A stretch of 11,116 nucleotides of DNA from positions 1-11,116 of the forward strand of contig NZ_JAILQF010000482.1 in the NCBI RefSeq assembly GCF_024699075.1. The letters run 5' to 3'. The notes beneath the pieces were generated by a model. The model did not search any database. It was not told the DNA's origin and was given only the letters and a program-made list of their open reading frames with translations. The position numbers were made by a program, and so were the translations under genes. How positions within the stretch are numbered: the first letter of the stretch is position 1; every line of letters starts with the position of its first letter. Source of the DNA: Butyrivibrio sp. (lineage in GTDB: Bacteria; Bacillota_A; Clostridia; Lachnospirales; Lachnospiraceae). Below, in pieces: positions 1 through 11,116 of the stretch.

Positions 1-1
1 T

Positions 2-721
2 GATCTTTCAGTCTCAGTTGATGAGATGCAGATCCTGCATAAATTAAATTTAAGTGTTAACCCCGGAGAGACTCATGTACTCATGGGACCCAATGGTGCA
101 GGTAAGTCTACACTTGGTAATACTCTTATGGGTAATCCCAATTATGTAGTAAATGAAGGTAAGATCTTTTTTGACGGACAGGATATAACAGATCTTTCTA
201 CAGATAAGAGAGCAGCTGCCGGAATGTTCATGTCATTCCAGAATCCTCTGGAAGTACCTGGAATATCACTTTCAGCTTTTATTAGAAATGCTCTTCATTC
301 ACAGACCGGTAAGCCTATTAAGCTCCTTGCTTACAAGAAGCTCTTAGAGTCTACAATGGAGCTTTTGAACATGGATCCTTCATATGCGGACCGTGATCTT
401 AACGTTGGATTTTCAGGTGGTGAGAAGAAGAAAGCCGAGATCCTTCAGCTTCTTATGCTCAGCCCTCGTCTTGCAATCCTTGATGAGACTGACTCAGGAC
501 TTGATGTAGATGCTGTTCGTACAGTTTCTAAGGGAATAGAGGAATATCAGAAGAGAGAAAATGGTGCGCTTATCATCATCACTCACTCAACTAAGATTCT
601 TGAATCACTTCATGTTGATCATACGCATGTTCTTGTAAAGGGTCAGCTTGTAGCATCCGGAGACGGATCACTTGTTGATGAGATCAATAAGAACGGATTT
701 GAGCGTTTTATCAAGGAATGA
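2..721 (+). CDS. sufC: SufC, Fe-S cluster assembly ATPase (5' partial)
   Basis: ABC-type ATPase of the SUF system; it binds SufB and SufD in the cytoplasm and uses ATP to reshape the SufBC2D scaffold on which Fe-S clusters are built. Numbering from the first visible codon (position 2), it has Walker A GPNGAGKST (29-37), a Q-loop in FQNP (79-82), the signature FSGGE (137-141) followed by a lysine run typical of SufC, Walker B ending LAILDETDSGLD (157-168) and the H-loop histidine in ITHS (195). The frame is open from position 2 to the window edge and reads DLSVSVDE before the first ATG at 26, matching the usual SufC N-terminus, so the true start lies outside and only a few residues are missing. 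It is the first visible gene of the suf operon, and the stop is followed within 4 bp by a tandem repeat array instead of by sufB. No membrane segments, consistent with a soluble SUF ATPase. Confidence 0.95.
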   Translation, partial: DLSVSVDEMQILHKLNLSVNPGETHVLMGPNGAGKSTLGNTLMGNPNYVVNEGKIFFDGQDITDLSTDKRAAAGMFMSFQNPLEVPGISLSAFIRNALHSQTGKPIKLLAYKKLLESTMELLNMDPSYADRDLNVGFSGGEKKKAEILQLLMLSPRLAILDETDSGLDVDAVRTVSKGIEEYQKRENGALIIITHSTKILESLHVDHTHVLVKGQLVASGDGSLVDEINKNGFERFIKE

Positions 722-724
722 TGT

Positions 725-1028
725 TTCGCTAATAAATATTTAGTAAGCTTATAAATAGATAACAGGTTTATAGATATTTAACAGGCATATAAATGCTTAG
801 CAAGCTTATAAATGTTTAGCAAGCTTATAGATATTTAACAAGCTTATAGATATTTAGCAAGCTTATAGATATTTAACAAGCCTATAGATATTTAACAAGC
901 TTATAGATATTTAGCAAGCTTATAGATATTTAACAAGCCTATAGATATTTAGCAAGCTTATAGATATTCAGCAAGCCTATAGATATTTAGCAAGCTAATA
1001 AATATTTAGCAAGTTTATAATTGTTTAA
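725..1028. repeat. 19-bp tandem repeat array, 16 units, between sufC and sufB
   Basis: Sixteen head-to-tail 19-bp units with consensus CAAGCTTATAGATATTTAR fill exactly 304 bp. Units 820-990 are nearly identical; the first units (725-800) and the last two (991-1028) have drifted. Two blocks of three units, 839-895 and 896-952, differ only at their final base, showing a 57-bp duplication. The main variable positions are the sixth base (T or C) and the last base (A or G). The unit contains TAG and TAA, and 19 is not a multiple of three, so every + frame is blocked and the array cannot encode protein. AAGCTT is self-complementary, so neighbouring units could pair weakly, but no strong hairpin is seen. 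There is no unique spacer, so it is a minisatellite and not a CRISPR array. Its effect on the suf transcript is unknown. Confidence 0.97.
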
Positions 1029-1034
1029 CAGGAT

Positions 1035-1050
1035 TATTCCTAATGGAATA
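1035..1050. promoter_or_regulatory. 16-bp palindrome upstream of sufB
   Basis: TATTCC-TAAT-GGAATA is a perfect 6-bp inverted repeat with a 4-bp centre, placed just after the tandem repeat and about 90 bp before the sufB start. It could be an operator or a small mRNA hairpin. The rest of 1029-1138 is AT-rich, and I see no convincing -35/-10 pair for a separate sufB promoter there. Confidence 0.35.
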
Positions 1051-1128
1051 TATCTTATTAAAATATATGGATAAGAACTATAGTTAATGTATTTAATATA
1101 GAGCAGAGATTATATCTGTTCATAGAAT

Positions 1129-1133
1129 GAGGA
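1129..1133 (+). promoter_or_regulatory. Ribosome binding site that sets the sufB start
   Basis: GAGGA ends 5 bp before the ATG at 1139. The upstream in-frame ATG at 1127 overlaps this motif and has no Shine-Dalgarno sequence of its own, so 1139 is preferred. Confidence 0.7.
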
Positions 1134-1138
1134 CTGAT

Positions 1139-2554
1139 ATGTTCGATGATATAAAGAAGTCAGTTGCTGATATCAATCAGTCAATGTACGACTTTAAAGA
1201 TGAAGAAACAGATAAAGACTTTTACCGAGAGGAAGCCGGATTTACCAGAGAGATCGTTGAAAAGGTTTCTAAGGAAAAAAATGATCCTGAATGGATGAGA
1301 GAGTTTCGTCTTAAATGTCTTGATATATACAATAATATGGAGATGCCTGATTGGGGCCCAGAAACAGATTCACTGGATATGGACCTTATTTCTTCATATG
1401 TAAAATCAAAAACAGGAATGCAGGGTAGTTGGGAAGATGTTCCGGACGATATCAAGAACACTTTTGAAAAGCTTGGTATTCCGCAGGCAGAGAGAGAATC
1501 TCTTGCAGGTGTCGGAGCCCAGTACGATTCTGAGCTTGTATATCATAATGTCAAAGATGAAGTTGCAGCTCAGGGCGTTGTCTATACAGATTTTGAAAGC
1601 GCTCTTCACGGCGAATATGCAGATATGGTCCGTGAGCATTTTATGAAGCTTGTTCCTCCTACAGATCACAAGTATGCAGCTCTTCACGGTGCTGTATGGT
1701 CAGGCGGATCATTTGTATATGTTCCAAAGGGAGTTAAGGTGGAGATTCCACTTCAGTCATACTTCCGTCTTAATGCAGCAGGTGCAGGACAGTTTGAGCA
1801 TACTCTTATTATCGTAGATGAAGGTGCAGATCTTCATTTCATAGAAGGATGTTCAGCTCCTAAATATAATGTTGCTAACCTTCATGCGGGCTGCGTTGAG
1901 CTCTTTGTAGGCAAGAACGCTAGACTTCGCTATTCTACTATTGAGAACTGGTCCAAGAATATGTACAACCTTAATACAAAGCGTGCCATCGTAGAAGAGG
2001 GCGGCGTAATGGAATGGGTTTCAGGTTCCTTTGGATCACATACATCATACCTTTATCCTATGACTATCCTTCAGGGTGATCATTCCAAGATGGAATATAC
2101 AGGTATCACTTTTGCAGGTAAGGGTCAGAACCTGGATACAGGTGCCAAGGTAGTTCATAACGGTAAGTATACATCTTCTGTTATCAGCACTAAGTCAATC
2201 TCTAAGGACGGCGGTATCGGAACTTACAGAAGTTCAGTTACCATTAATTCAGGTGCAAAGCATTCCAAGGCTGTTATATCCTGTGATTCACTGATGCTTG
2301 ATTCAATGTCAAGATCAGATACAATTCCTGGAATGGATATTCGTACCAATGATGCAGATGTAGGACACGAAGCTAAGATAGGCCGTATCAGTGATGATGC
2401 AGTATTCTATCTCATGAGCCGTGGTATCAAAGAAGAGGATGCAAGAGCCATGATCGTATCAGGCTTTGCAGATCCTGTATCCAAGGAGCTTCCTCTTGAA
2501 TATGCAGTAGAAATGAACAATCTGATCAAGCTTGAAATGTCAGGCAATATGTAA
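1139..2554 (+). CDS. sufB: SufB, Fe-S cluster scaffold subunit
   Basis: Scaffold protein of the SufBC2D complex, on which sulfur from SufS/SufU and iron are assembled into clusters. The product is 471 residues, the usual SufB length. Conserved landmarks, numbered from 1139, include the cysteine in EGCSAP (C238), a glycine-rich beta-helix core, the cysteine in ISCDSLML (C382), which lines up with the E. coli SufB cysteine needed for cluster formation, the HE pair in VGHEAKIG (H410, E411), and the C-terminal ELPLEYAVEMNNLI block typical of SufB. No key residue looks lost. The gene follows sufC after an unusually long 417-bp gap filled by the repeat array and precedes sufD by 76 bp. The start at 1139 rests on the GAGGA site; an ATG at 1127 would add four residues. 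Confidence 0.96.
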   Translation: MFDDIKKSVADINQSMYDFKDEETDKDFYREEAGFTREIVEKVSKEKNDPEWMREFRLKCLDIYNNMEMPDWGPETDSLDMDLISSYVKSKTGMQGSWEDVPDDIKNTFEKLGIPQAERESLAGVGAQYDSELVYHNVKDEVAAQGVVYTDFESALHGEYADMVREHFMKLVPPTDHKYAALHGAVWSGGSFVYVPKGVKVEIPLQSYFRLNAAGAGQFEHTLIIVDEGADLHFIEGCSAPKYNVANLHAGCVELFVGKNARLRYSTIENWSKNMYNLNTKRAIVEEGGVMEWVSGSFGSHTSYLYPMTILQGDHSKMEYTGITFAGKGQNLDTGAKVVHNGKYTSSVISTKSISKDGGIGTYRSSVTINSGAKHSKAVISCDSLMLDSMSRSDTIPGMDIRTNDADVGHEAKIGRISDDAVFYLMSRGIKEEDARAMIVSGFADPVSKELPLEYAVEMNNLIKLEMSGNM

Positions 2555-2630
2555 TTGAAGGATTATTGTGACATTCTGATATCGTGATAGTAGATCATGA
2601 TAAGTAGCGAAGTTAGATGCGAGGTAACCT

Positions 2631-3791
2631 ATGAATATAGATATGAGAGTTAATGAGCTTCCGGCTAAAACATACAGGTGGCTTAAATTAAACGGTGAAG
2701 ATATAAGTGAAAAAGATATTTCTTTTTCCAAATTTTCCATGGAAGCAGTCAAGGTTCCTGAAGGTGTGAGCCTTTCAGAGAATGTTGATGCAAGTGAAGC
2801 TGAGAGCGTATTTGCTCCTTCTCATGAAGCAAATTTAAAAGCAGATGAGGGACTTGTAGGTCCCAATGGAGACACTGCTCCAAATCATGCCGGTCAGATA
2901 GTAAGAACTGGTATGGGATCAGGAGTGGACGCCCTTTTGGAAAGTGCCGGAGTAAAGGCAAGTGTGGTTAAGGCTGTAGAAGGAACAAAGACTTTGGAGC
3001 CTGTAATGTTCCACGATCACCTTGAAAAGGGTAAGAGCACTATAAGCCGTCAGGTAATTATAGTTCCTGATGATGCAGAGCTTACAGTCATAATGGATTA
3101 TGATTCTGATGCTGATGCAGAAGGAATTGAAGCAGTAAGTACTAAATTTTATGTAGGCAGTAATGCTATTCTTCATCTTGTAAAGGTTCAGATGCTTGGC
3201 AAGAAGGTCAGACATTTTGATGATCTTGGCGGCGTTGTAATGGATAACGGCAAGTTTGATCTTGTTGAGATGGAGATGGGTGCTTCCAAGGCTTATGTTG
3301 GCGCTTATGTAGGACTTTTGGGAAAAGAAGCTGTTTCAGATAACAATACAGGATTTCTTGGTACAGATGACCAGTTCTATGACTTTAATTATGTTGCAGA
3401 GCAGCGTGGCAAGAAGACAGAATCCATGGCAACCTTCAGAGGAATTCTTGATGGAAATGCTACTAAGAACTGGAGAGGCTCACTTGATTTTTGTGAGAGT
3501 TCAGCAGGAAGCGTTGGAGATGAGCAGGAGGATACACTTCTTCTATCTCCCGGAGTTATCAACAGGTCAATGCCTCTGATCCTTTGTAAAGAGGAGAATG
3601 TTGATGGAAGACATGGTGCAACTATTGGCCAGCTTTCTGATGATATGCTCTTTTATATGGAGACAAGAGGAATCGATAAGGAAAGCGCTAAGAAGATAAT
3701 GGTCCGTGCAAGGCTTGATTCAGTTGCACGTATGATCCCTGATGAGGATCTTAGAAATAAGGTTGCAGTATATCTTGATGGAATACTGTAA
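2631..3791 (+). CDS. sufD: SufD, Fe-S cluster scaffold subunit
   Basis: Partner of SufB in the SufBC2D complex; the SufB-SufD interface is where the nascent cluster forms. The product has 386 residues, somewhat shorter than enterobacterial SufD (about 420). The family C-terminus is clear: RHGATIGQL (H328 matches the conserved SufD histidine in the HGAT motif), then LFYMETRGI and a helical tail. Residues 55-95 are a variable, probably flexible insert rich in Ala, Glu and Asp, and about 115-310 carry the beta-helix core. The ATG at 2631 is preceded by GAGGT (2621-2625) with a 5-bp spacer. It lies 76 bp after sufB and directly before sufS, in the expected clostridial order. Confidence 0.93.
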   Translation: MNIDMRVNELPAKTYRWLKLNGEDISEKDISFSKFSMEAVKVPEGVSLSENVDASEAESVFAPSHEANLKADEGLVGPNGDTAPNHAGQIVRTGMGSGVDALLESAGVKASVVKAVEGTKTLEPVMFHDHLEKGKSTISRQVIIVPDDAELTVIMDYDSDADAEGIEAVSTKFYVGSNAILHLVKVQMLGKKVRHFDDLGGVVMDNGKFDLVEMEMGASKAYVGAYVGLLGKEAVSDNNTGFLGTDDQFYDFNYVAEQRGKKTESMATFRGILDGNATKNWRGSLDFCESSAGSVGDEQEDTLLLSPGVINRSMPLILCKEENVDGRHGATIGQLSDDMLFYMETRGIDKESAKKIMVRARLDSVARMIPDEDLRNKVAVYLDGIL

Positions 3792-3807
3792 GTAAAGGTC
3801 AATGGTT

Positions 3808-3812
3808 GGAGG
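3808..3812 (+). promoter_or_regulatory. Ribosome binding site that sets the sufS start
   Basis: GGAGG ends 4 bp before the ATG at 3817. The in-frame ATG at 3802 lies just upstream of it and has only a weaker AAAGG before it; the protein begins like other SufS proteins (MKAEDFRKDFPIF) when started at 3817. Confidence 0.65.
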
Positions 3813-3816
3813 CAGT

Positions 3817-5034
3817 ATGAAGGCAGAAGATTTCAGAAAAGATTTCCCGATATTTGAGGGAAATGATTATATATATTTTGACAACGCGGCTACATCTCAG
3901 AGGCCGCAGGCGGTAATGGATGCGGTAACTTCTTTTTATCAAAAGTCTAATGCCAATCCTCTTCGCGGACTCTATGACTGGAGCGTTGATGCTACAGATC
4001 GTTATGAACATGCAAGACAGAGAGTAGCAGATTTTATCGGTGCTAAGAAGAGCTGCGAGATCGTTTTTACCAGAAATACTACTGAATCTATGAATCTTCT
4101 TGCTTACAGCTATGGCCTTAAGAATATCAATGAAGGCGATGAAATCGTAATCACAGTAATGGAGCACCACTCCAATATTCTTCCCTGGCAGATGGTATGC
4201 AGACAAAAGGGTGCAAAGCTTGTATGGCTTGAGCCTGATGAAGAAGGTGTTATATCAGAACAGGAATACAGATCCAAGATCACAGACAAAGCAAAGATAG
4301 TATCAATAGGTCATGTATCTAACGTACTTGGTATTACCAATCCTGTTAAAGAGATAGCTGAATATGCCCACCAAAAGGGTGCTATAGTTATAGCAGACGG
4401 AGCACAGTCTGTGCCTCATATGAAGGTTGATGTAAGGGATCTTGATGTAGATTTCCTTGCTTTCTCCGGACATAAGCTTATGGCTCCTATGGGAATCGGC
4501 GTCCTTTATGGAAGAGAAGAGCTTCTTGAAGCTATGGATCCTTTCCTTACTGGTGGAGAGATGATCGAGTATGTTACAAGAGACTCTGCTACATGGGCAG
4601 AGCTTCCTCATAAATTTGAAGCAGGTACTGTTAATGCTGCTGATGCTGTAGGCCTTGAAGCTGCAATTGACTATCTTGAGAAGGTCGGATATGACTTTAT
4701 CCAGTCACAGGAGAAGCATCTTACTCGTCTTCTTATGGACGGAATGAGCGAATTGTCGTATATTAAAATATATGGATCCAAGGATCCTGATAAGCATTGC
4801 GGAATTGTGACATTTACTATGGACGGCGTTCATCCTCACGATATATCTTCAGTACTTAACGAAGACCGTGTGTGTGTAAGAGCAGGCCATCACTGTGCAC
4901 AGCCGCTTATGCAGTTTATCGGCGCAGGCTCAACGGCAAGAGCCAGCCTCTATTTCTATAATACAGAAGAAGAGGTTAAGAGATTTTTGGAAGTATTAAA
5001 AGGCGTCAGAAAGGTTATGGGCTATGGAGATTAA
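3817..5034 (+). CDS. sufS: SufS, cysteine desulfurase (PLP-dependent)
   Basis: Converts L-cysteine to L-alanine, holding the sulfur as a persulfide on its active-site cysteine and passing it to SufU. The product is 405 residues, normal for group II desulfurases. Visible landmarks numbered from 3817: FDNAATSQ near the N-terminus, the EHHSN block with the cofactor-stacking histidine, IADGAQS with the aspartate that contacts the PLP ring nitrogen, SGHK with the PLP lysine (K220), and VRAGHHCAQP with the catalytic cysteine (C360), followed by RASLYFYNTEEEV. All catalytic residues are present. The gene begins 25 bp after sufD and its last codons overlap sufU by 11 bp, indicating translational coupling of the desulfurase with its sulfur acceptor. 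Confidence 0.96.
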   Translation: MKAEDFRKDFPIFEGNDYIYFDNAATSQRPQAVMDAVTSFYQKSNANPLRGLYDWSVDATDRYEHARQRVADFIGAKKSCEIVFTRNTTESMNLLAYSYGLKNINEGDEIVITVMEHHSNILPWQMVCRQKGAKLVWLEPDEEGVISEQEYRSKITDKAKIVSIGHVSNVLGITNPVKEIAEYAHQKGAIVIADGAQSVPHMKVDVRDLDVDFLAFSGHKLMAPMGIGVLYGREELLEAMDPFLTGGEMIEYVTRDSATWAELPHKFEAGTVNAADAVGLEAAIDYLEKVGYDFIQSQEKHLTRLLMDGMSELSYIKIYGSKDPDKHCGIVTFTMDGVHPHDISSVLNEDRVCVRAGHHCAQPLMQFIGAGSTARASLYFYNTEEEVKRFLEVLKGVRKVMGYGD

Positions 5035-5470
5035 GCAGCTTTATCGCGAGATCGTTAACGAACACAATTTAAGCCCCTTGCATAAGGGAGTTATGGAGAA
5101 TCCTTCTCTTAAGCTTCGCGGAGTTAATCCTTCATGTGGAGATGACATTACTTTGCAGCTTAAGGTAAATGATAAAGGCATTATTGAAGATGCCATGTTT
5201 GACGGATCAGGATGTGCTATATCACAGGCATCTGTAGATATGATGGCAGACCAGATCATCGGCAAGAACAAGGATGAAGCTATTAAGCTTGCATCTACTT
5301 TTATGGGCATGATTCATGGTGATGTCACTGATGAAAAAGAGATAGAGCAGCTTGATGAAGCTGCAGCACTTCAGGATGTGTCTCATATGCCTGCGCGTGT
5401 TAAGTGCGCAGTTCTTGGCTGGAAGACCATGCAGGAGATATTGGAGCACCCTGAAAAGAGCGAAAACTGA
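5024..5470 (+). CDS. sufU: SufU, zinc-dependent sulfurtransferase
   Basis: Accepts persulfide sulfur from SufS and delivers it to the SufBCD scaffold, the Gram-positive counterpart of SufE. The 148-residue product has the SufU zinc ligands in order: C38 and D40 in NPSCGDD, C64 in GSGCAIS, and C128 in RVKCAVLGW. The 20-odd residue stretch between the second and third cysteines that distinguishes SufU from IscU is present (the region around residues 90-120). Length matches the family. The ATG lies inside the end of sufS (11-bp overlap), with AAAGG about 9 bp upstream. No SufE or A-type carrier is in the window, so SufU appears to be the only dedicated sulfur carrier of this operon. Confidence 0.95.
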   Translation: MEIKQLYREIVNEHNLSPLHKGVMENPSLKLRGVNPSCGDDITLQLKVNDKGIIEDAMFDGSGCAISQASVDMMADQIIGKNKDEAIKLASTFMGMIHGDVTDEKEIEQLDEAAALQDVSHMPARVKCAVLGWKTMQEILEHPEKSEN

Positions 5471-5508
5471 TATACATTCTATAAACTAATACGGAAGTAA
5501 AGTAAGGA

Positions 5509-6054
5509 ATGGCTGATTCTAATATTACTAAAAATGCCCTTGCGACATCTTTAAAAAACTTAATGAGGGAAAAGCCTTTCGAAAAGATCAGTGTATCGGA
5601 TATATGCGATGCCTGTGGAATGAACCGTAAAAGTTTTTATTATCATTTCAAGGACAAGTATGATCTGGTCAATTGGATCTTTCTTGTGAGTTTTCTTGGA
5701 AAGATGGATATCGACGATTATGAAACCGGGTGGGATGCACTTAAGGATATCTGCCACAGGTTTTATGAAGACAGGGAGTTTTACAGGGCTGCACTGAAAA
5801 TCGAAGGCCAGAATTCTTTTCATGATTATGTGATCGAGTCCATACGTCCTATTATGTATCTGTATATTAACGATATGATAAAGGACAATGATCTTAAGGA
5901 TTTCTTCGTCACCTTCTATTGTGATGCCTTCCTTTCAGCCATTACAAGATGGCTTTCTGAAGGTATGCAGATGAATGACGAGGAGTTTGTTGGTAAGCTC
6001 AAAGTTATAAGCGTAGGTCTTGCCAAAATAGTAATAAGAGATGAAGAAAAATAA
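5509..6054 (+). CDS. TetR-family transcriptional regulator, DhaS-like
   Basis: A 181-residue DNA-binding regulator. The helix-turn-helix spans about residues 26-46 (KISVSDICDACGMNRKSFYYHF), with the characteristic TetR-family FYYHFKDKYDL ending. The C-terminal half resembles the TetR_C_8 type found in DhaS-like regulators, rich in aromatic and acidic helices; its ligand cannot be read from the sequence. The gene starts 38 bp after sufU on the same strand with no terminator between them, and the first terminator follows its own stop, so it is probably the last gene of the suf transcript. The AAGGA before the ATG is immediately adjacent with no spacer, and a GGAAG sits 11 bp away, so translation may be weak. 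Many relatives start with the same MADSNITKNAL, which supports this start. Confidence 0.88.
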   Translation: MADSNITKNALATSLKNLMREKPFEKISVSDICDACGMNRKSFYYHFKDKYDLVNWIFLVSFLGKMDIDDYETGWDALKDICHRFYEDREFYRAALKIEGQNSFHDYVIESIRPIMYLYINDMIKDNDLKDFFVTFYCDAFLSAITRWLSEGMQMNDEEFVGKLKVISVGLAKIVIRDEEK

Positions 6055-6086
6055 AAAGCAGCAATTAACGACTTGCTGCTATTTTT
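6053..6086 (+). terminator. Intrinsic terminator of the suf-tetR operon
   Basis: A perfect 8-bp stem, AGCAGCAA (6057-6064) and TTGCTGCT (6073-6080), with an 8-nt loop, is followed by ATTTTT. It overlaps the TetR stop codon, and an A-run precedes it. Confidence 0.88.
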
Positions 6087-6134
6087 ATGTTATGATAATA
6101 CGAAATAAATGATATTATGTATTAGATTATATAA

Positions 6135-6155
6135 AGAGAAAACGGGGATTTCTCT
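6135..6155 (+). promoter_or_regulatory. Hairpin in the leader of the diguanylate cyclase gene
   Basis: AGAGAAA (6135-6141) and TTTCTCT (6149-6155) form a perfect 7-bp stem around a G-rich loop, ACGGGGA. It has no T-run, so it is not a terminator. It lies about 115 bp before the start codon and would be in the mRNA only if transcription begins upstream, for example from the weak TTATGA/TATTAT pair at 6090-6118. Confidence 0.35.
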
Positions 6156-6192
6156 AAAAGGATTTAAATATAAGGAATTACATCTTGTGACT

Positions 6193-6228
6193 TTGACATC
6201 AAAGTATATGCGGATATATCCTTTGATG
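6193..6228 (+). promoter_or_regulatory. Candidate promoter overlapped by an inverted repeat, before the diguanylate cyclase
   Basis: TTGACA (6193-6198), a perfect -35, is followed after 16 bp by TATATC (6215-6220), an acceptable -10. An 8-bp inverted repeat, CATCAAAG (6197-6204) and CTTTGATG (6221-6228), brackets the same stretch, with a nested TATAT/ATATA pair around GCGG. On DNA this looks like an operator covering the promoter; on RNA it would be a hairpin with a 2-nt bulge. The two readings are exclusive, because a transcript from this promoter would not contain the left arm. Confidence 0.5.
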
Positions 6229-6253
6229 CCTGCCATAACAGTATATTCCTTAT

Positions 6254-6261
6254 GGGGAGGG
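6254..6261 (+). promoter_or_regulatory. Ribosome binding site that sets the diguanylate cyclase start
   Basis: GGGGAGGG ends 8 bp before the ATG at 6270. An in-frame ATG at 6252 overlaps the motif and has no site of its own, so 6270 is the start. Confidence 0.8.
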
Positions 6262-6269
6262 ATACTAAA

Positions 6270-7592
6270 ATGGATTTGAACAATATTGAGGAGTATACAC
6301 CGGATTCTGTAACTGGTCTTTTGGCCGGAATGGTAGACCAGGTCTTTGTAGTTAATTCCTGTACTAACAAATATAAAAGAATAATAAGCCGCGGCTTCAT
6401 GGATGAATGCTTTAAAAAGACGGGCGATTATAATGATCTGCTTGAGAGAGTTTTTTTTCATATGAAGGACAGTGGTGAAAAGGTTGTTGATTCCTATAAG
6501 GTCTTTCTGGCTTCGTACGGAACTTATAATGATAAATATACAAGGCGCTGCAGGATCGATTTTAAGGGCGATAAGCATATAATTCAGATGACAATATATC
6601 CTTTAAAGGATACCTGCATTTATATATTTGTGCTTAATGAGCTTGATTATGAAGATTCAAATTGCGATATGATCGCATCAACCAAGGTCGATACTATTCA
6701 GAACACATATCTTTTTTCAATGTATATCGATCTTATCAAAAATACTACAAGTAGTATAAGTGTTACTGAAGTTTCCAGTGAGAATCTTCACTCAAACATT
6801 CTTTATACTGATTGGAGAATGATGATCGTAAATATGATCTGGCCTGATGACAGACCAAAGTTCCTTAAATGGACAGATCCTGAATATTTGAAAACTCATT
6901 TTGCTCCGGGACATTCAGCTTCTTTTGACTGTAAGATGCAGAATCTGGAAGGAGTTTTCATCTGGGTTAAGCTTATATTCAGCCGTTCTGAGACGAGCAA
7001 TGAGGATGACTTCCGCTTCGTATTTATGGTTCAGGATATTAATGAATCTATGGAAGCTATGAATTCATATCTTAAGAAATTTGAAGAGAAGGCATCAATA
7101 GATACTCTTACAGGAGTCTTTAATCACGGTCGCATAGAGACAGAGATAAGCAATGCTATCGAGGATATAAGGAAGGGTCAGGGACCTGCTTCCATAGCTA
7201 TTCTTGATATAGATTATTTCAAGGAAGTCAATGATAATTATGGTCATGCTACAGGAGATAAGACCCTTAAACGCTTCTCCAAAATGGTTAGTGAATACCT
7301 TGAAGACAGTAACTGCGTTCTTGGAAGATGGGGCGGTGAAGAGTTTGTAGCTGTATGCCACGACTCAGATCTTAGTAAGACACGTGACATCACAAGTGAC
7401 TTACTTGTGCATATAAGCTCAGAGAATTTTGGAAATGTCGGGACTATAACAGCCAGTATAGGAATAACTCAGCTTCTTGAAACAGATAGCATCAACAATG
7501 CTTTTGAGAGAATGGACAAGGCCCTGTATCAGGCCAAGGCTGATGGACGTAACTGCGTAAGGTCAAGCGACCAGCTTACAATTGCGAAATAA
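6270..7592 (+). CDS. Diguanylate cyclase with PAS-like sensor region (GGDEF family)
   Basis: Makes the second messenger c-di-GMP from two GTP. The 440-residue product has no membrane segments or signal peptide and is likely cytoplasmic. Residues about 15-125 and 145-258 look like two PAS-type sensor folds (the second ends in FVFMVQDINES, as PAS domains commonly do), followed by a helical linker about 257-276 and a GGDEF domain from 277. The domain has DTLTG (278-282), the metal-binding aspartate in ILDIDYFK (D313), and an intact active-site GGEEF (355-359), so it should be active. The allosteric I-site, RxxD shortly before the motif, reads DSNC here and is lost, suggesting no classical product inhibition. 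It is transcribed alone, between the TetR terminator and a strong terminator of its own. PAS assignments are weaker than the catalytic one. Confidence 0.93.
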   Translation: MDLNNIEEYTPDSVTGLLAGMVDQVFVVNSCTNKYKRIISRGFMDECFKKTGDYNDLLERVFFHMKDSGEKVVDSYKVFLASYGTYNDKYTRRCRIDFKGDKHIIQMTIYPLKDTCIYIFVLNELDYEDSNCDMIASTKVDTIQNTYLFSMYIDLIKNTTSSISVTEVSSENLHSNILYTDWRMMIVNMIWPDDRPKFLKWTDPEYLKTHFAPGHSASFDCKMQNLEGVFIWVKLIFSRSETSNEDDFRFVFMVQDINESMEAMNSYLKKFEEKASIDTLTGVFNHGRIETEISNAIEDIRKGQGPASIAILDIDYFKEVNDNYGHATGDKTLKRFSKMVSEYLEDSNCVLGRWGGEEFVAVCHDSDLSKTRDITSDLLVHISSENFGNVGTITASIGITQLLETDSINNAFERMDKALYQAKADGRNCVRSSDQLTIAK

Positions 7593-7605
7593 ATCTGAAT
7601 TTAAT

Positions 7606-7666
7606 AAAGCTTTCGATTTTCATCTTTGGATTTAAGCTCCATGGATGAAAACCGAAAGCTTTTTTA
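7606..7666. terminator. Long hairpin terminator after the diguanylate cyclase
   Basis: AAAGCTTTCG... (7606-7624) pairs with ...CGAAAGCTTT (7644-7662) in a 19-bp stem with a single A-C mismatch, and pairing can continue into the loop through TGGA/TCCA. A T-run follows at 7660-7665. It serves the + strand gene that ends at 7592; the stem is long enough also to hinder convergent transcription. Confidence 0.9.
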
Positions 7667-7681
7667 TAATGATACAGCCAG

Positions 7682-7708
7682 AAAACCCATTAGTTTTAGA
7701 TGATGGGT
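7682..7708 (-). terminator. Short candidate terminator of the - strand gene
   Basis: Read on the - strand, ACCCAT (7708-7703) and ATGGGT (7690-7685) form a 6-bp stem with a 12-nt loop, followed by TTTTC. It begins 7 bp beyond the stop codon of the - strand gene. The stem is modest, so the larger hairpin beyond it may contribute. Confidence 0.55.
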
Positions 7709-7714
7709 AGTTCA

Positions 7715-8752
7715 CTATGCGACAGTACAGCTGTATGCCGGCATGACATTTTTGACAATATCAATAAAAGGCGAATCTATGTTTAATGCATCGTTATCAT
7801 TAGAAGGGAATACTATAGATCCGTCTGTTTCGAATTCAAGGTATCCTCTTTCATCTCCAAGAAGTCTCTGACTTATAAGGGATGAATCATAGTACATATC
7901 CCATATGAAGCATGGGAACTTGCCTTCAAGCCTTATCTGCTTGACTATATCACCGTGATTGGCGCAGCCCTTCTTGGGGATCAGGATTACCATGCTTGAC
8001 TGGTAATCGAAATATTTTTGAAGGGCATCTGAGTTAGCATCAATCGAATCAACTTTTTCAAAATCATTATCATCATAGAAATGATGTATGCTGTACAAGA
8101 GCTTTGCATCATGCAAAAGCTTTGAAGTATTAAAGCTTTGCGGCTCGTCTGCACTTATAGATATCATTACGTTCATGCATTCTTTTAATGCAGAAGCCTG
8201 ACTTGTTGTAAGCTCTGCATTTTCAAGAAAATAGAAGAAGGCGCATTCTTCATTTTTTCTGAATATATCGATTATCTCATTAGATGCGATGCTTCCTCCT
8301 CTTTGAACTATGGCAAAAGAGTTTATGCCATAAGGAAGGGCCTGCTCTATCATGCTTTCAATCTTAGCCGGATCTGCACCATTGTCTAAACGGACATCAT
8401 ATTTGAACATCAAAGCCCAGGGAAGTGTTATTGAAAGATCCTGGGACTTCTGACGCAGAATCCTTGCATCATAAGTCCAGCTGTTATAGCCCATATTGAT
8501 ACCAAATCTCCTTATACAGGAGTGGTCTGTGTTATCAAGGAAGTTCTGCAGCATAGTATAATAAGGACTATCTTCATTAGAGAGAATAGTCTGAATGATA
8601 TCGATTATGTCATCCTGAAAACGTCCTGTAGAGAACTGTCTTCCAAGATCTGCAAGCTTTCTTATGCTTCTTCTCGGGTCATCTGCCATATTTTCGATGC
8701 CGCGTTTTACTACGGAATCGATCATAAGTCTTGTTAATTTCTTTTTATCCAT
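7715..8752 (-). CDS. Radical SAM-like protein lacking the Fe-S cluster site (probable pseudoenzyme)
   Basis: No obvious domain motif is present, but the 345-residue product aligns with the divergent neighbour enzyme (start 9035). From K32 to P111-W112 the two run without a gap at a constant offset of 8, sharing KLxD, D-x-TD (73-76), NxGY (86-89) and I-x-x-PW followed by F (116). Then about 14 residues are missing, exactly those that hold CxxxCxxC in the enzyme. GINSFAIVQRGGSI replaces the LGVYLYMLTGGEPL region, so the SAM-binding GGEP is GGSI. The barrel end persists (RGYLEFETDG matches the RNYFHINASG region), but the cysteine after it is absent and the protein stops near enzyme residue 392, without the C-terminal cysteine region. 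The frame is intact, with AAGG 7 bp before the ATG (8760-8763), arguing for a maintained protein and not a decaying gene. It cannot use the classical radical SAM mechanism. A regulatory or binding partner of the enzyme is inference only. Confidence 0.85.
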   Translation of the reverse strand: MDKKKLTRLMIDSVVKRGIENMADDPRRSIRKLADLGRQFSTGRFQDDIIDIIQTILSNEDSPYYTMLQNFLDNTDHSCIRRFGINMGYNSWTYDARILRQKSQDLSITLPWALMFKYDVRLDNGADPAKIESMIEQALPYGINSFAIVQRGGSIASNEIIDIFRKNEECAFFYFLENAELTTSQASALKECMNVMISISADEPQSFNTSKLLHDAKLLYSIHHFYDDNDFEKVDSIDANSDALQKYFDYQSSMVILIPKKGCANHGDIVKQIRLEGKFPCFIWDMYYDSSLISQRLLGDERGYLEFETDGSIVFPSNDNDALNIDSPFIDIVKNVMPAYSCTVA

Positions 8753-9034
8753 ATTTTTACCTTAAGCATTTATTATAAATAAAGATATGAACCTTTTAGT
8801 GAATTTGAGCACTGTTTTGGACGATTTATACCTTACTATTTATTCCTTTAATTTTACACAAATTAAAGATAATGAAAAGTACTAATCACGACAAAATAAT
8901 ATTATTAGAAATACGATAAATACTACACGGACAGATGTGCAAAAGTGTCCAAAAATTACTCAAACTAAAATTCTTGTCCGATGACTGGTTTTTTAAAGAA
9001 TAATACAATGAATATAAGAAAAGGAGGACAGACT
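8753..9034. promoter_or_regulatory. Shared divergent promoter region of the radical SAM pair
   Basis: A very AT-rich 282-bp region separates the two divergent starts and must hold both promoters. I see no convincing consensus pair for either. It contains an inverted repeat GGACA-N12-TGTCC (8929-8933, 8946-8950), another TGTCC at 8975-8979, and TTTTGGAC (8815-8822), whose reverse complement GTCCAAAA recurs at 8947-8954. These four GGAC-type sites could be an operator set, but no known regulator motif is recognised. No small gene or hairpin with a T-run is visible. Confidence 0.4.
9021..9027 (+). promoter_or_regulatory. Ribosome binding site that sets the radical SAM start
   Basis: AAGGAGG, a near-perfect anti-16S match, ends 7 bp before the ATG at 9035. 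In-frame ATGs at 8981 and 9008 lack such a site and would add non-conserved residues. Confidence 0.92.
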
Positions 9035-10555
9035 ATGAGTACAGTTGTTCAGAATATATCACATGCTGCACAGAGGCAGGCATTTAGTATTCTTATTGAT
9101 CGTTATTTGAAGCACCTTAACAAAACAGAAGACAGGACTGAGACTTATCTTAAGCTTGTAGATGAGGCTGAGAAGTTCTTTTCTGATGGTTTTGACAAGA
9201 AAAATATGGAAGCAGTCAGAAATGCTATAAAGGACCCTGATAACAGATGGATCAAGTTCATAAACAGGGTAATAGATGAAACTGATCCCCATGTTGCCAA
9301 GATGACAATGCTTAACCTTGGCTATGAGGCATTCTTCCGCGGAACCAAGACAATCAGAGCCAATCGTAAGAAATACGGCTGCAACATCCCATGGCTGATC
9401 CTCTTTGATCCTACAAGTGCCTGCAATATGCACTGCCAGGGCTGCTGGTCAGGTACATACGGTGCCAAGCACAATCTTTCATTTGAGGACATGGACAAGA
9501 TCATTACTCAGGGCAAAGAGCTTGGTGTATACCTTTACATGCTGACAGGCGGAGAACCTCTTGTTCGTAAGAAGGATATCTTAAAGCTTGCAGAAAAGCA
9601 CAATGATGTTGAGTTCTCTATCTTTGATAACTCCACACTTATAGATGATGATTTTTGTAAAGAGGTTGTAAGACTTGGAAATATCACATTCCAGCTTTCT
9701 ATAGAAGGAACACCTGATACCAATGATGCTAGAAGAGGCATAGGGCACTATGATGCAGTTATGAAGGCCATGGACCTGTTCCAGAAATACGGTATCATAT
9801 TCGGAACCTCAATCTGCTATACACGTGCTAACATCGAAGCTGTTACAGACGAGAAGTTCCTTAGAATGATCTCAGATAAGGGAGCAAGATTCGGTTTCTT
9901 CTTCCACTATATGCCGGTTGGTAATAATGCAGTTCCTGAACTTATGCCTACAGTAGAGCAGCGCCGCAAGATGATCGACAAGATACGTTATATCCGTTCT
10001 GACAAGTGCGATATAGGCTTCTTCCCTATGGATTTCCAGAATGACGGTGAGGCTGTTGGAGGATGTATAGCAGGCGGACGTAACTATTTCCATATCAATG
10101 CAAGTGGTGATGCAGAGCCTTGTGTATTCATACACTTCTCTAATACTAACATTCATGATAATTCCATACTTGAGATGCTTCAGTCTCCTTTGTTCATGGC
10201 ATATCATGAGGGCCAGCCATTTAACAGAAATCACCTTCGTCCATGCCCGATGCTTGAGAATCCTCAGCTTTTAAGAGAGATGGTTGCAAAAACAGGAGCA
10301 CACCAGACCAACGAAGAGTCAGAAGAGTCAGTTGAGCATCTGTGCTCAAAGTGCGATGATTACTCTAAGGAATGGGGCCCTGTTGCTGATGATATCTGGG
10401 CTCATCAGACACATAAGAGACCTAAATATGAGAACTATTCTTATGAGAAGCGCATGCATCCTGAACTTGCTGCTTTCGAGCATGAGGAAGATAAGGCTAA
10501 GGAAGATGCCAATAAAGATAAGGTGGCGCAGTTCAAGAATGTCGCTAACCTTTGA
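9035..10555 (+). CDS. Radical SAM protein with C-terminal extra-cysteine (SPASM/twitch-like) region
   Basis: A 506-residue cytoplasmic enzyme of the radical SAM superfamily, which uses a [4Fe-4S] cluster and S-adenosylmethionine to start radical chemistry. Residues 1-118 are a helical N-terminal domain. The cluster motif follows as C130-x3-C134-x2-C137 (ACNMHCQGCW), then the SAM-binding GGEP (172-175), a TIM-barrel core, and HYMPVGN (291-297). More cysteines lie in GGCIAGG (C344), EPC (C363), RPC (C404) and CSKC (C437, C440), the pattern of an auxiliary cluster domain. A Lys/Glu-rich tail ends the protein. I recognise it as a family common in gut and rumen Firmicutes, but its substrate is unknown to me, and no precursor peptide is visible next to it to suggest peptide maturation. 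It is monocistronic, divergent from its cluster-less paralogue, and ends in a clear terminator. Confidence 0.93.
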   Translation: MSTVVQNISHAAQRQAFSILIDRYLKHLNKTEDRTETYLKLVDEAEKFFSDGFDKKNMEAVRNAIKDPDNRWIKFINRVIDETDPHVAKMTMLNLGYEAFFRGTKTIRANRKKYGCNIPWLILFDPTSACNMHCQGCWSGTYGAKHNLSFEDMDKIITQGKELGVYLYMLTGGEPLVRKKDILKLAEKHNDVEFSIFDNSTLIDDDFCKEVVRLGNITFQLSIEGTPDTNDARRGIGHYDAVMKAMDLFQKYGIIFGTSICYTRANIEAVTDEKFLRMISDKGARFGFFFHYMPVGNNAVPELMPTVEQRRKMIDKIRYIRSDKCDIGFFPMDFQNDGEAVGGCIAGGRNYFHINASGDAEPCVFIHFSNTNIHDNSILEMLQSPLFMAYHEGQPFNRNHLRPCPMLENPQLLREMVAKTGAHQTNEESEESVEHLCSKCDDYSKEWGPVADDIWAHQTHKRPKYENYSYEKRMHPELAAFEHEEDKAKEDANKDKVAQFKNVANL

Positions 10556-10586
10556 TGCTATATTTTAAACCAACAAAGATTTTTAT

Positions 10587-10626
10587 GAAAAGAGCAATGG
10601 GTATATGCCTGTTGCTCTTTTCCTTT
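10587..10626 (+). terminator. Intrinsic terminator after the radical SAM gene
   Basis: A perfect 11-bp stem, GAAAAGAGCAA (10587-10597) and TTGCTCTTTTC (10612-10622), with a 14-nt loop, leads into a T-rich stretch, 32 bp after the stop codon. Confidence 0.9.
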
Positions 10627-10634
10627 ATAGATTG

Positions 10635-10776
10635 TTGGATTTAGAATAAAAATATGCAGTAGAGTTATCTTGGCTTGGATTTAGAATAATAATATGCAGT
10701 AGAGTTATCTTGGCTTGATTTTGGAATATAGAATATGCAGTAGAGTTATCTGGGCTTGATTTTGAAATAATATTTA
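10635..10776. repeat. 40-bp direct repeat, three copies plus a partial fourth
   Basis: Copies at 10635-10674 and 10675-10714 differ at one base; a third (10715-10755, 41 bp) is more diverged, and 10756-10776 matches only the first half of the unit. All three full copies keep the core ATGCAGTAGAGTTATC. The array begins a few bases after the radical SAM terminator and is non-coding: the long - strand frame across it starts with GTG, lacks a ribosome binding site and merely repeats the DNA period. There are no unique spacers. Confidence 0.93.
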
Positions 10777-10963
10777 GAAAAAATGATATAGCAGTGATAA
10801 TTTTTGAAAAAAATTTGGATTTTCCGGCTTTAAAAATACAAAAAATTAAGTGGTAAAAATGAGAATGGTTATCAAAAACAGGCAATTTTGACCTGATCCT
10901 ATTGTATTGATGCACAATTTAGGAAGTTAAACCTTACTATTTTCAAGCATTTTTCACATTTTG
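10777..10963. other. AT-rich gene-free stretch before the tRNA promoter
   Basis: This stretch contains no gene, only long A and T runs, one Fur-box-like palindrome (annotated separately) and a short ATTGT...ACAAT inverted repeat (10901-10918). A further 8-bp AT-only hairpin, ATTTTTCA/TGAAAAAT (10949-10969), leads into a T-run and lies against the upstream element of the tRNA promoter; I do not call it a terminator. Confidence 0.5.
10860..10874. promoter_or_regulatory. Fur-box-like palindrome
   Basis: TGAGAATGGTTATCA matches the 7-1-7 Fur box TGATAATNATTATCA at 12 of its 14 fixed positions. It lies about 110 bp upstream of the tRNA promoter with no obvious iron gene beside it in the window, so it may be chance in AT-rich DNA. 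Confidence 0.25.
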
Positions 10964-11013
10964 AAAAATTTTTTAAAAAAACACTTGCAAAGGTCTGTAG
11001 GTTGTAGTAAAGT
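10964..11013 (+). promoter_or_regulatory. Promoter with AT-rich upstream element for tRNA-Lys
   Basis: TTGCAA (10985-10990) and TAAAGT (11008-11013) are separated by exactly 17 bp. The 20 bp before the -35 consist of an A-run, a T-run and another A-run, the layout of an UP element that boosts stable-RNA promoters. It is the only good promoter-like pair ahead of the tRNA. Confidence 0.6.
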
Positions 11014-11017
11014 ATCT

Positions 11018-11041
11018 TTTGTCGCAAGGAACTGCGGCAAA
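11018..11041 (+). other. Hairpin at the 5' end of the tRNA precursor
   Basis: TTTGTCGCA (11018-11026) pairs with TGCGGCAAA (11033-11041) in a 9-bp stem with one G-U pair around a 6-nt loop. It starts where the predicted transcript would begin and ends 15 nt before the mature tRNA, so it would sit in the leader removed by RNase P. Confidence 0.45.
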
Positions 11042-11056
11042 CAAAATAAAAGAAAT

Positions 11057-11116
11057 GCGCTGCTAGCTCAGTTGGTAGAGCACCTGACTCTTAATCAGGT
11101 TGTCCAGGGTTCGAGA
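11057..11116 (+). tRNA. tRNA-Lys (anticodon CUU), 3' end cut by the window
   Basis: The cloverleaf is clear: acceptor 5' strand GCGCTGC (11057-11063), TA, D-stem GCTC/GAGC (11066-11069, 11078-11081), anticodon stem CCTGA/TCAGG (11083-11087, 11095-11099) with loop CTCTTAA giving anticodon CTT (11090-11092), variable loop TTGTC, T-stem CAGGG and T-loop TTCGAGA. The window ends at the last base of the T-loop, so the T-stem 3' strand and the acceptor 3' strand are missing. Confidence 0.96.

Follow-up and report, generated by a model that had tools for sequence, protein, structure and literature searches.

A cluster-less radical SAM paralogue as the putative coactivator of a DhaS-like TetR regulator in Butyrivibrio

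The locus

A contig of Butyrivibrio sp. (NCBI RefSeq assembly GCF_024699075.1, NZ_JAILQF010000482.1, positions 1 to 11,116; the window hereafter denotes this entire stretch of 11,116 nucleotides, nt) encodes, on opposite strands, an intact radical S-adenosylmethionine (SAM)/SPASM enzyme and a paralogue of this enzyme that has lost the cluster-binding residues. An operator-like palindrome lies between the two divergent genes, and a TetR regulator similar to DhaS is encoded nearby, on the strand opposite to that of the paralogue. The key features are summarized in Table 1. A preliminary description of this DNA recognized the divergent pair, and both open reading frames (ORFs), 7715-8752 (-) and 8981-10555 (+), are confirmed here; the TetR gene, the palindrome and the status of TetR as the most constant partner of the paralogue had escaped it.

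Table 1. Features of the Butyrivibrio locus, in window coordinates
Feature	Position	Strand	Details
DhaS-like TetR regulator gene	5509..6054	+	TetR_N and TetR_C_8 (PF14278, 68.5 bits); usual tail-to-tail partner of the pseudo-radical-SAM gene
GGDEF protein gene	6252..7592	+	between the TetR and pseudo-radical-SAM genes in the window
Pseudo-radical-SAM gene	7715..8752	-	345 amino acids (aa); N-terminal helical domain and barrel; lacks CxxxCxxC and the SPASM cysteines
Shine-Dalgarno sequence of the pseudo-radical-SAM gene	8760..8763	-	AAGG, 7 nt before the ATG
Operator-like palindrome GGACA-N12-TGTCC	8929..8950	.	GGACAGATGTGCAAAAGTGTCC; between the two divergent genes
Second half-site CTTGTCC	8973..8979	+	immediately upstream of the -35 predicted for the enzyme
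Predicted enzyme promoter	8981..9009	+	poor -35 ATGACT (8981-8986), 17 nt, -10 TACAAT (9004-9009)
Intact radical SAM/SPASM enzyme	9035..10555	+	Pfam PF04055 and PF13186; ORF as listed 8981-10555, 524 aa

The listed enzyme ORF opens at 8981, but its true start is most likely the ATG at 9035, as indicated by the start position in the family and by a Shine-Dalgarno sequence, AAAGGAGG, at 9020-9027.

An old, conserved radical SAM pseudoenzyme

The N-terminal region of the pseudo-radical-SAM protein is aligned with the enzyme by BLASTP over 108 columns at 19% identity (E 3e-8); the two gap positions precede K32, and the similarity reported as ungapped from K32 onward holds. Profile-profile comparison carries the relationship through the barrel, matching residues 4-335 of the paralogue to residues 28-402 of the enzyme over 329 columns (14% identity, probability 99.9, E 2.5e-31), and the predicted fold of the paralogue is the radical SAM barrel.

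The paralogue lacks the SAM-cluster motif CxxxCxxC by which the catalytic radical SAM superfamily is recognized. The columns of the three cysteines of this motif and of enzyme residue C422 are gaps in all 33 aligned dead paralogues, which bears out the deletion of the cluster loop and the absence of the C-terminal, SPASM cysteine region described previously. At the column of the EPC cysteine (C381), the most frequent letters in the 33 sequences are P (12), H (4) and S (3), with C outside the top five. The proposed change of GGEP to GGSI has to be abandoned as a column-wise substitution because, in both alignments, the E-P of the enzyme is matched to the GG of the paralogue GGS, and this GG is not conserved across the dead-paralogue family. 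A search of NCBIfam with the paralogue returned no family match up to E 1, and thus neither the haloarchaeal pseudo-SAM/SPASM family TIGR04347 nor DhaQ (TIGR02362).

The dead-paralogue family comprises 50 protein clusters and 99 genome places, of which 80 loci were kept; all counts below refer to phylogenetically non-independent relatives. A first scan of the genome contigs with the single paralogue protein found no relatives, and the 99 places were recovered with alignment A1 (48 of 51 sequences; P0012, P0032 and P0036 were excluded as partial). Alignment A2 holds 29 sequences, namely, the window, 19 of 120 listed matches and 9 locus pieces trimmed at tblastn ends. According to record titles, the family is represented in Butyrivibrio, other Lachnospiraceae, Oscillospiraceae, Tissierella and other Clostridia, with one record labelled Bacteroidales.

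The loss of all cluster residues would also fit a functionless, decaying copy of the enzyme gene, and genome G146, in which fragments of the paralogue and of TetR lie side by side, could be viewed in the same light. This possibility is extremely improbable. The frame of the window paralogue is uninterrupted and is preceded by a ribosome binding site, as originally stated. Among the 81 related frames (the window and 80 loci, two frames being partial), 79 are at least 298 aa long and none contains CxxxCxxC, that is, no orthologue that retains the cysteines was found. The ratio of nonsynonymous to synonymous substitution rates (dN/dS) is 0.03-0.17, far from 1, in the 22 computable of the 25 closest pairs. 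When a tree built from 33 paralogues and 29 enzymes is rooted at its midpoint, the paralogues form one clade (support 1.0) and the enzymes another. Sequence comparison thus provides good support for an old, conserved pseudoenzyme maintained by purifying selection rather than a product of local decay. The adjoining fragments in G146 (C31:23269-24729) suggest that there the TetR-paralogue pair decayed jointly.

Outside the cluster and GGEP motifs, 14 positions are the same in at least 80% of both families (D35, F40, N86, G88, G95, P111, W112, G142, F172, N194, Y226, R274, D289 and G311 in paralogue numbering), in line with a ligand site that would have been kept in the pseudoenzyme. The distribution of conservation differs between the families: the modal residue frequency in the N-terminal domain and the barrel is, respectively, 0.57 and 0.42 in the paralogues, and 0.60 and 0.78 in the enzymes. 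Such a reversal would be expected if the N-terminal domain of the paralogue now makes a protein contact.

A DhaS-like TetR regulator is the most constant partner

The window TetR combines the two domains that characterize DhaS-type regulators, and its best solved relatives are 4mk6, a probable dihydroxyacetone kinase regulator (E 1.3e-19), and 2iu5, Lactococcus DhaS (E 3.4e-11), which is named in its entry as the activator of the dhaKLM operon. Against the DhaS model TIGR02366 (cutoff 129 bits), it scores 127.3 bits.

Judging by tblastn coordinates, a TetR homologue is present in 68 of the 81 loci, tail-to-tail with the dead paralogue in 65 and within 300 nt of it in 56, whereas the enzyme (at least 38% identity) is found in 25 loci, in each of which it is divergent from the dead paralogue. 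The most constant partner of the dead paralogue is therefore TetR, not the enzyme. In the window, the gap between TetR and the paralogue is larger because the GGDEF gene intervenes; since the two genes are directly adjacent in most relatives, the GGDEF gene is probably not part of the module.

The window TetR gene follows sufU of the suf (iron-sulfur cluster assembly) operon (5024-6054), and a suf gene lies directly upstream of TetR on the same strand in 16 of the 81 loci, including the window, perhaps reflecting a link of the regulator to iron-sulfur supply in part of the family. Between sufC and sufB, a 19-nt tandem repeat occurs in 15.4 copies (728-1019).

The adjacency and co-occurrence of the genes were surveyed in 250 genomes of one family-level group, their completeness being unstated, with cuts of our own choosing (190 bits for the paralogue, 660 for the enzyme and 130 for TetR). 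The dead paralogue exceeds its cut in 23 genomes (in G237 as a 194-aa frame), and the enzyme reaches at least 660 bits in 79, among which G198 has a partial match only. The enzyme is present in 21 of the 23 genomes with the paralogue compared to 58 of the 227 genomes without it (odds ratio 31, Fisher p 5.8e-10, uncorrected for kinship). TetR exceeds its cut in 21 genomes, that is, in 19 of the 23 with the paralogue as well as in G174 and G184, and is tail-to-tail with the dead paralogue in 20 of these 21, with 29-213 nt between the match ends. This count includes G174, where the paralogue, at 175.6 bits, is below the cut but has a 356-aa frame tail-to-tail with TetR; in the remaining genome, G184, TetR lies 345 nt from the contig start with its 3' end facing that start.

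These patterns bear on the possibility, raised in the preliminary description, that the pseudoenzyme forms a heterodimer with the radical SAM enzyme, as a subunit without catalytic activity or as a partner that binds the substrate. The co-occurrence and the divergent linkage in 25 of the 81 loci agree with such a role, as do two genomes in which enzyme and paralogue genes follow each other on the same strand (G083 and G218). A subunit would nevertheless leave the tail-to-tail TetR unexplained; three genomes (G004, G006 and G044) keep the paralogue and TetR where the full-length enzyme was not found, and the 58 genomes with the enzyme alone indicate that the paralogue is not needed for catalysis in general. 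We therefore regard a heterodimer as very unlikely; the regulatory role suggested alongside it is the one favoured by the TetR partner and by the operator described below.

An operator-like palindrome precedes both genes

The palindrome GGACAGATGTGCAAAAGTGTCC is the only perfect GGACA-N12-TGTCC in the window. Across the window and the 80 loci, exact GGAC-N14-GTCC occurs 62 times, compared to 3-28 times for every other spacing from 0 to 30. In the window and L001-L080, a palindrome with at least 9 of 10 matches is found within 250 nt upstream of 46 of 77 paralogue genes, 21 of 25 linked enzyme genes and 8 of 66 tetR genes (four and two loci with short upstream regions were left out). The corresponding controls for the paralogue and enzyme genes are 1.3% and 2.5% for other spacings and 0.6% and 0.3% for shuffled sequences; overall, eight other spacings yield 0.95-2.5%, and shuffles 0.3-0.7%. 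Thus, most of the genes that would be controlled by a DhaS-type module are preceded by GGACA-N12-TGTCC.

The presence of the palindrome before enzyme genes follows that of the paralogue: where the genome encodes the paralogue, 16 of 25 enzyme genes have the palindrome upstream; where it does not, none of 35 do. The former come from 19 of the 21 genomes that have both genes, all except G001 and G011, and the latter are one gene from each of 35 of the 58 enzyme-only genomes, the regions being hand-picked. The palindrome also precedes enzymes encoded on contigs other than that of the paralogue (L084, L085, L147 and L154). In the two same-strand pairs (G083:C9 and G218:C187), the operator lies upstream of the enzyme gene; the G218 paralogue match is split across two frames.

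On the paralogue side, 15 of 44 loci have a TATAAT-like hexamer that begins 22-25 nt past the operator (16 hits in all, compared to a maximum of 10 per 4-nt window in 1000 shuffles), and the -35 region is poor and T-rich. With the -10 element at this distance, the operator would abut the -35, a position typical of an activator. Towards the enzyme, several loci share a second half-site, TTTGTCC, some 24-30 nt after the operator. The scan for the enzyme promoter alone does not rise above shuffles (7 compared to 5.6, standard deviation 2.4); the position of the predicted promoter matches that in a few relatives.

In an enzyme-free clade (among L003-L011), two distant enzymes of approximately 370-400 aa have no operator that can be assigned to a promoter; in L094, a 9/10 match at 1739 falls inside the matched coding stretch, and L095 has none at 9/10. 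Next to the dead paralogue, five enzyme-free loci (L003, L004, L006, L007 and L008) carry an orphan gene of 121-125 aa, which diverges from the paralogue in four of them; one representative, of 121 aa, gave no Pfam match, and the gene is a possible alternative target of the TetR-paralogue pair. In genome G009, an identical palindrome, GGACACTGAAATATAAGTGTCC, occurs five times (C1, C3 and C4), probably as part of a repeated element.

The locus resembles the DhaS-DhaQ system

In the DhaS-DhaQ system, DhaS is said to be an activator that binds GGACACATN6ATTTGTCC and, reportedly, an inactive protein, DhaQ, together with dihydroxyacetone, serves as its coactivator. Dha loci were sought in plasmids with a piece of DhaS, which yielded 11 records, and four stretches were examined. 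On a Pediococcus damnosus plasmid, dhaKLM is divergent from dhaQ, a DhaK paralogue annotated 'DhaKLM operon coactivator' (TIGR02362, over the cutoff), which is followed by a DhaS-like TetR that scores 109.9 bits against TIGR02366; a 10/10 operator, GGACAAGATTGTAAATGTGTCC, lies between dhaK and dhaQ. On plasmids of two lactobacilli (L. curvatus and L. plantarum), dhaK and dhaS flank a 9/10 site, and dhaS is tail-to-tail with a further DhaK-like gene, broken or short; the one on Latilactobacillus curvatus pL1595-1 (L211 5521-6138) is short and abuts an IS30 element. The fourth stretch, a Jeotgalibaca glpK locus, has no operator nearby.

The DhaS-DhaQ system of the dhaKLM operon (Lactococcus, Pediococcus) shares with the window a regulator of the TetR_C_8/DhaS type that neighbours a paralogue of the regulated enzyme, with divergent enzyme and paralogue genes and with GGACA-N12-TGTCC between them. 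In the window, the paralogue next to TetR is, to judge from its sequence, inactive. The differences are that this paralogue has the radical SAM fold rather than that of DhaK, that the enzyme under putative control is a radical SAM/SPASM protein, and that TetR and the paralogue are tail-to-tail, rather than in tandem as in P. damnosus. The statement that no system of this form has been described accordingly requires qualification: it holds for radical SAM proteins in the open literature searched, where no such case was found (subscription journals may hold one), but the same design has already been described in DhaQ-DhaS.

A further TetR protein resembling DhaS points in another direction. According to passages of one report (PMC12647141), pneumococcal FasR (SPV_0647), a TetR protein whose structural matches include DhaS and 4MK6, adjoins the fatty-acid carrier gene fakB3, the mRNA of which is reduced in the fasR mutant. 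The resemblance to the window is that of a DhaS-like TetR adjoining a gene for a binding protein; as a difference, FasR controls fabM and fatty-acid saturation, and the same passages mention no radical SAM protein. By analogy, the pseudoenzyme could be a ligand-binding or carrier protein that delivers or stores the substrate of the enzyme, is a target of TetR together with the enzyme and stands outside the regulator, which, like many TetR proteins, would sense a small molecule alone. Operators upstream of both genes, the back-to-back genes in the same direction in G083 and G218, and the weaker TetR relatives upstream of the enzyme in the paralogue-free genomes G113 and G147 would fit a carrier. 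We consider it unlikely in view of the constancy of TetR rather than the enzyme as the neighbour (20 of 21 strong TetR matches tail-to-tail), the genomes in which the TetR-paralogue pair outlives the enzyme, and the likeness of the layout to the dhaQ-dhaS loci.

A proposed regulatory module

Taken together, the evidence makes it probable that the locus is a regulatory module of the DhaS/DhaQ type in which a radical SAM pseudoenzyme occupies the place of DhaQ. Under the scenario we propose, the pseudoenzyme is an old paralogue of the enzyme that retained the barrel and the N-terminal domain and lost the cluster and the SPASM domain. A dimer of the DhaS-type TetR would bind GGACA-N12-TGTCC between the divergent genes, and the pseudo-radical-SAM protein would act as its ligand-sensing coactivator, as DhaQ does for DhaS. 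The ligand would be the substrate, or possibly the product, of the radical SAM enzyme, and the complex of TetR, pseudoenzyme and ligand would switch on, rather than repress, the enzyme gene and the gene of the pseudoenzyme itself.

Several observations weigh against this scenario. The Fisher p for co-occurrence is optimistic, the relatives being non-independent, and the association between the genes is incomplete. TetR is absent at E 1e-25 from 4 of the 23 paralogue genomes (G257, G064, G119 and G237); in G064, only 35 nt separate the end of the paralogue from a contig start, at the expected position of TetR. G004 and G044 carry the paralogue and TetR with no enzyme found at E 1e-60, nothing in G006 (the genome of L010) matches the enzyme at E 1e-10, and the enzyme relatives in G003 and G005 reach only 33-36% identity. 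In two genomes free of the paralogue, the enzyme gene is preceded on its own strand by a weaker TetR relative, 200 nt away in G113 (41% identity; C12:70769-72794) and about 810 nt away in G147 (35%; C54:30330-33029); related TetRs may therefore control the enzyme without the pseudoenzyme. The G113 enzyme gene has no GGACA-N12-TGTCC site.

The distribution of the operator is imperfect as well: 31 of the 77 paralogue genes lack a 9/10 palindrome, and 5 of the 21 genomes with both genes (G257, G128, G208, G144 and G119) have none at any enzyme gene. Genome-wide, the palindrome is not enriched (121 sites compared to 100 of the reversed pattern in 17 genomes), so that the regulon, if real, is small. 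The clustering of -10 elements on the enzyme side, about 53 nt after the operator, is not significant (4 of 13, p 0.07). Finally, the window TetR scores slightly below the DhaS cutoff, and the Jeotgalibaca locus combines a DhaS-like TetR with no DhaQ.

The intact enzyme and its relatives

Radical SAM/SPASM enzymes such as SuiB, SkfB and PqqE bind clusters and act on peptides. For the window enzyme, a role in mycofactocin or other ribosomally synthesized and post-translationally modified peptide (RiPP) pathways was set aside, the best 25 of 58 NCBIfam matches being far below their cutoffs. One weak match is TIGR04347 (49.3 bits, cutoff 525), which, like the family described here, is a radical SAM-like family labelled pseudo; it differs in that the window pseudoenzyme gives no match to it. 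We know of no function of TIGR04347 and of no link between it and TetR. The enzyme relatives scored, 7997 database proteins all at E 1e-3 or better, include more than one family.

Butyrivibrio is reported to make diabolic-acid lipids (PMC13274423; PMC11868695), and the bacterial membrane-spanning lipid synthase Mss was considered for this reason as the identity of the enzyme. We claim no substrate; against the enzyme profile, the archaeal Mss homologue Tes (7tol) gives no better than E 8e-4.

Enzyme relatives of 32-34% identity are encoded on plasmids of Escherichia albertii (NZ_CP117576.1, 2263-3624) and Klebsiella (NZ_CP077819.1, 86759-87970) and in a Methanosphaera record (NZ_CP118754). Downstream of the enzyme gene in the window, a 40-nt tandem repeat is present in 3.4 copies (10635-10772).

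Implications

On a broader scale, we lean slightly towards the view that radical SAM proteins were co-opted for transcriptional sensing in gut and rumen Clostridia, where a cluster-less paralogue would read the ligand through the substrate pocket inherited from its parent enzyme and report to a DhaS-family TetR. In the same measure, we favour the generalization that DhaS-family activators leave the sensing of the ligand to inactivated copies of their target enzymes, DhaK and DhaQ being one such pair, and the radical SAM and pseudo-radical-SAM proteins another.

If the proposed scheme is correct, we know of no earlier radical SAM pseudoenzyme to which a function in gene control has been assigned, and DhaQ-DhaS would no longer be a single oddity but rather a design that was reinvented with an unrelated fold. 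The regulator of an enzyme of unknown substrate could then be matched to that enzyme through its dead twin, providing a way into an orphan group of enzymes that has numerous relatives. Having no iron-sulfur cluster, the dead twin should tolerate work in air better than the enzyme does, and it could serve as bait for the ligand on which the enzyme acts.

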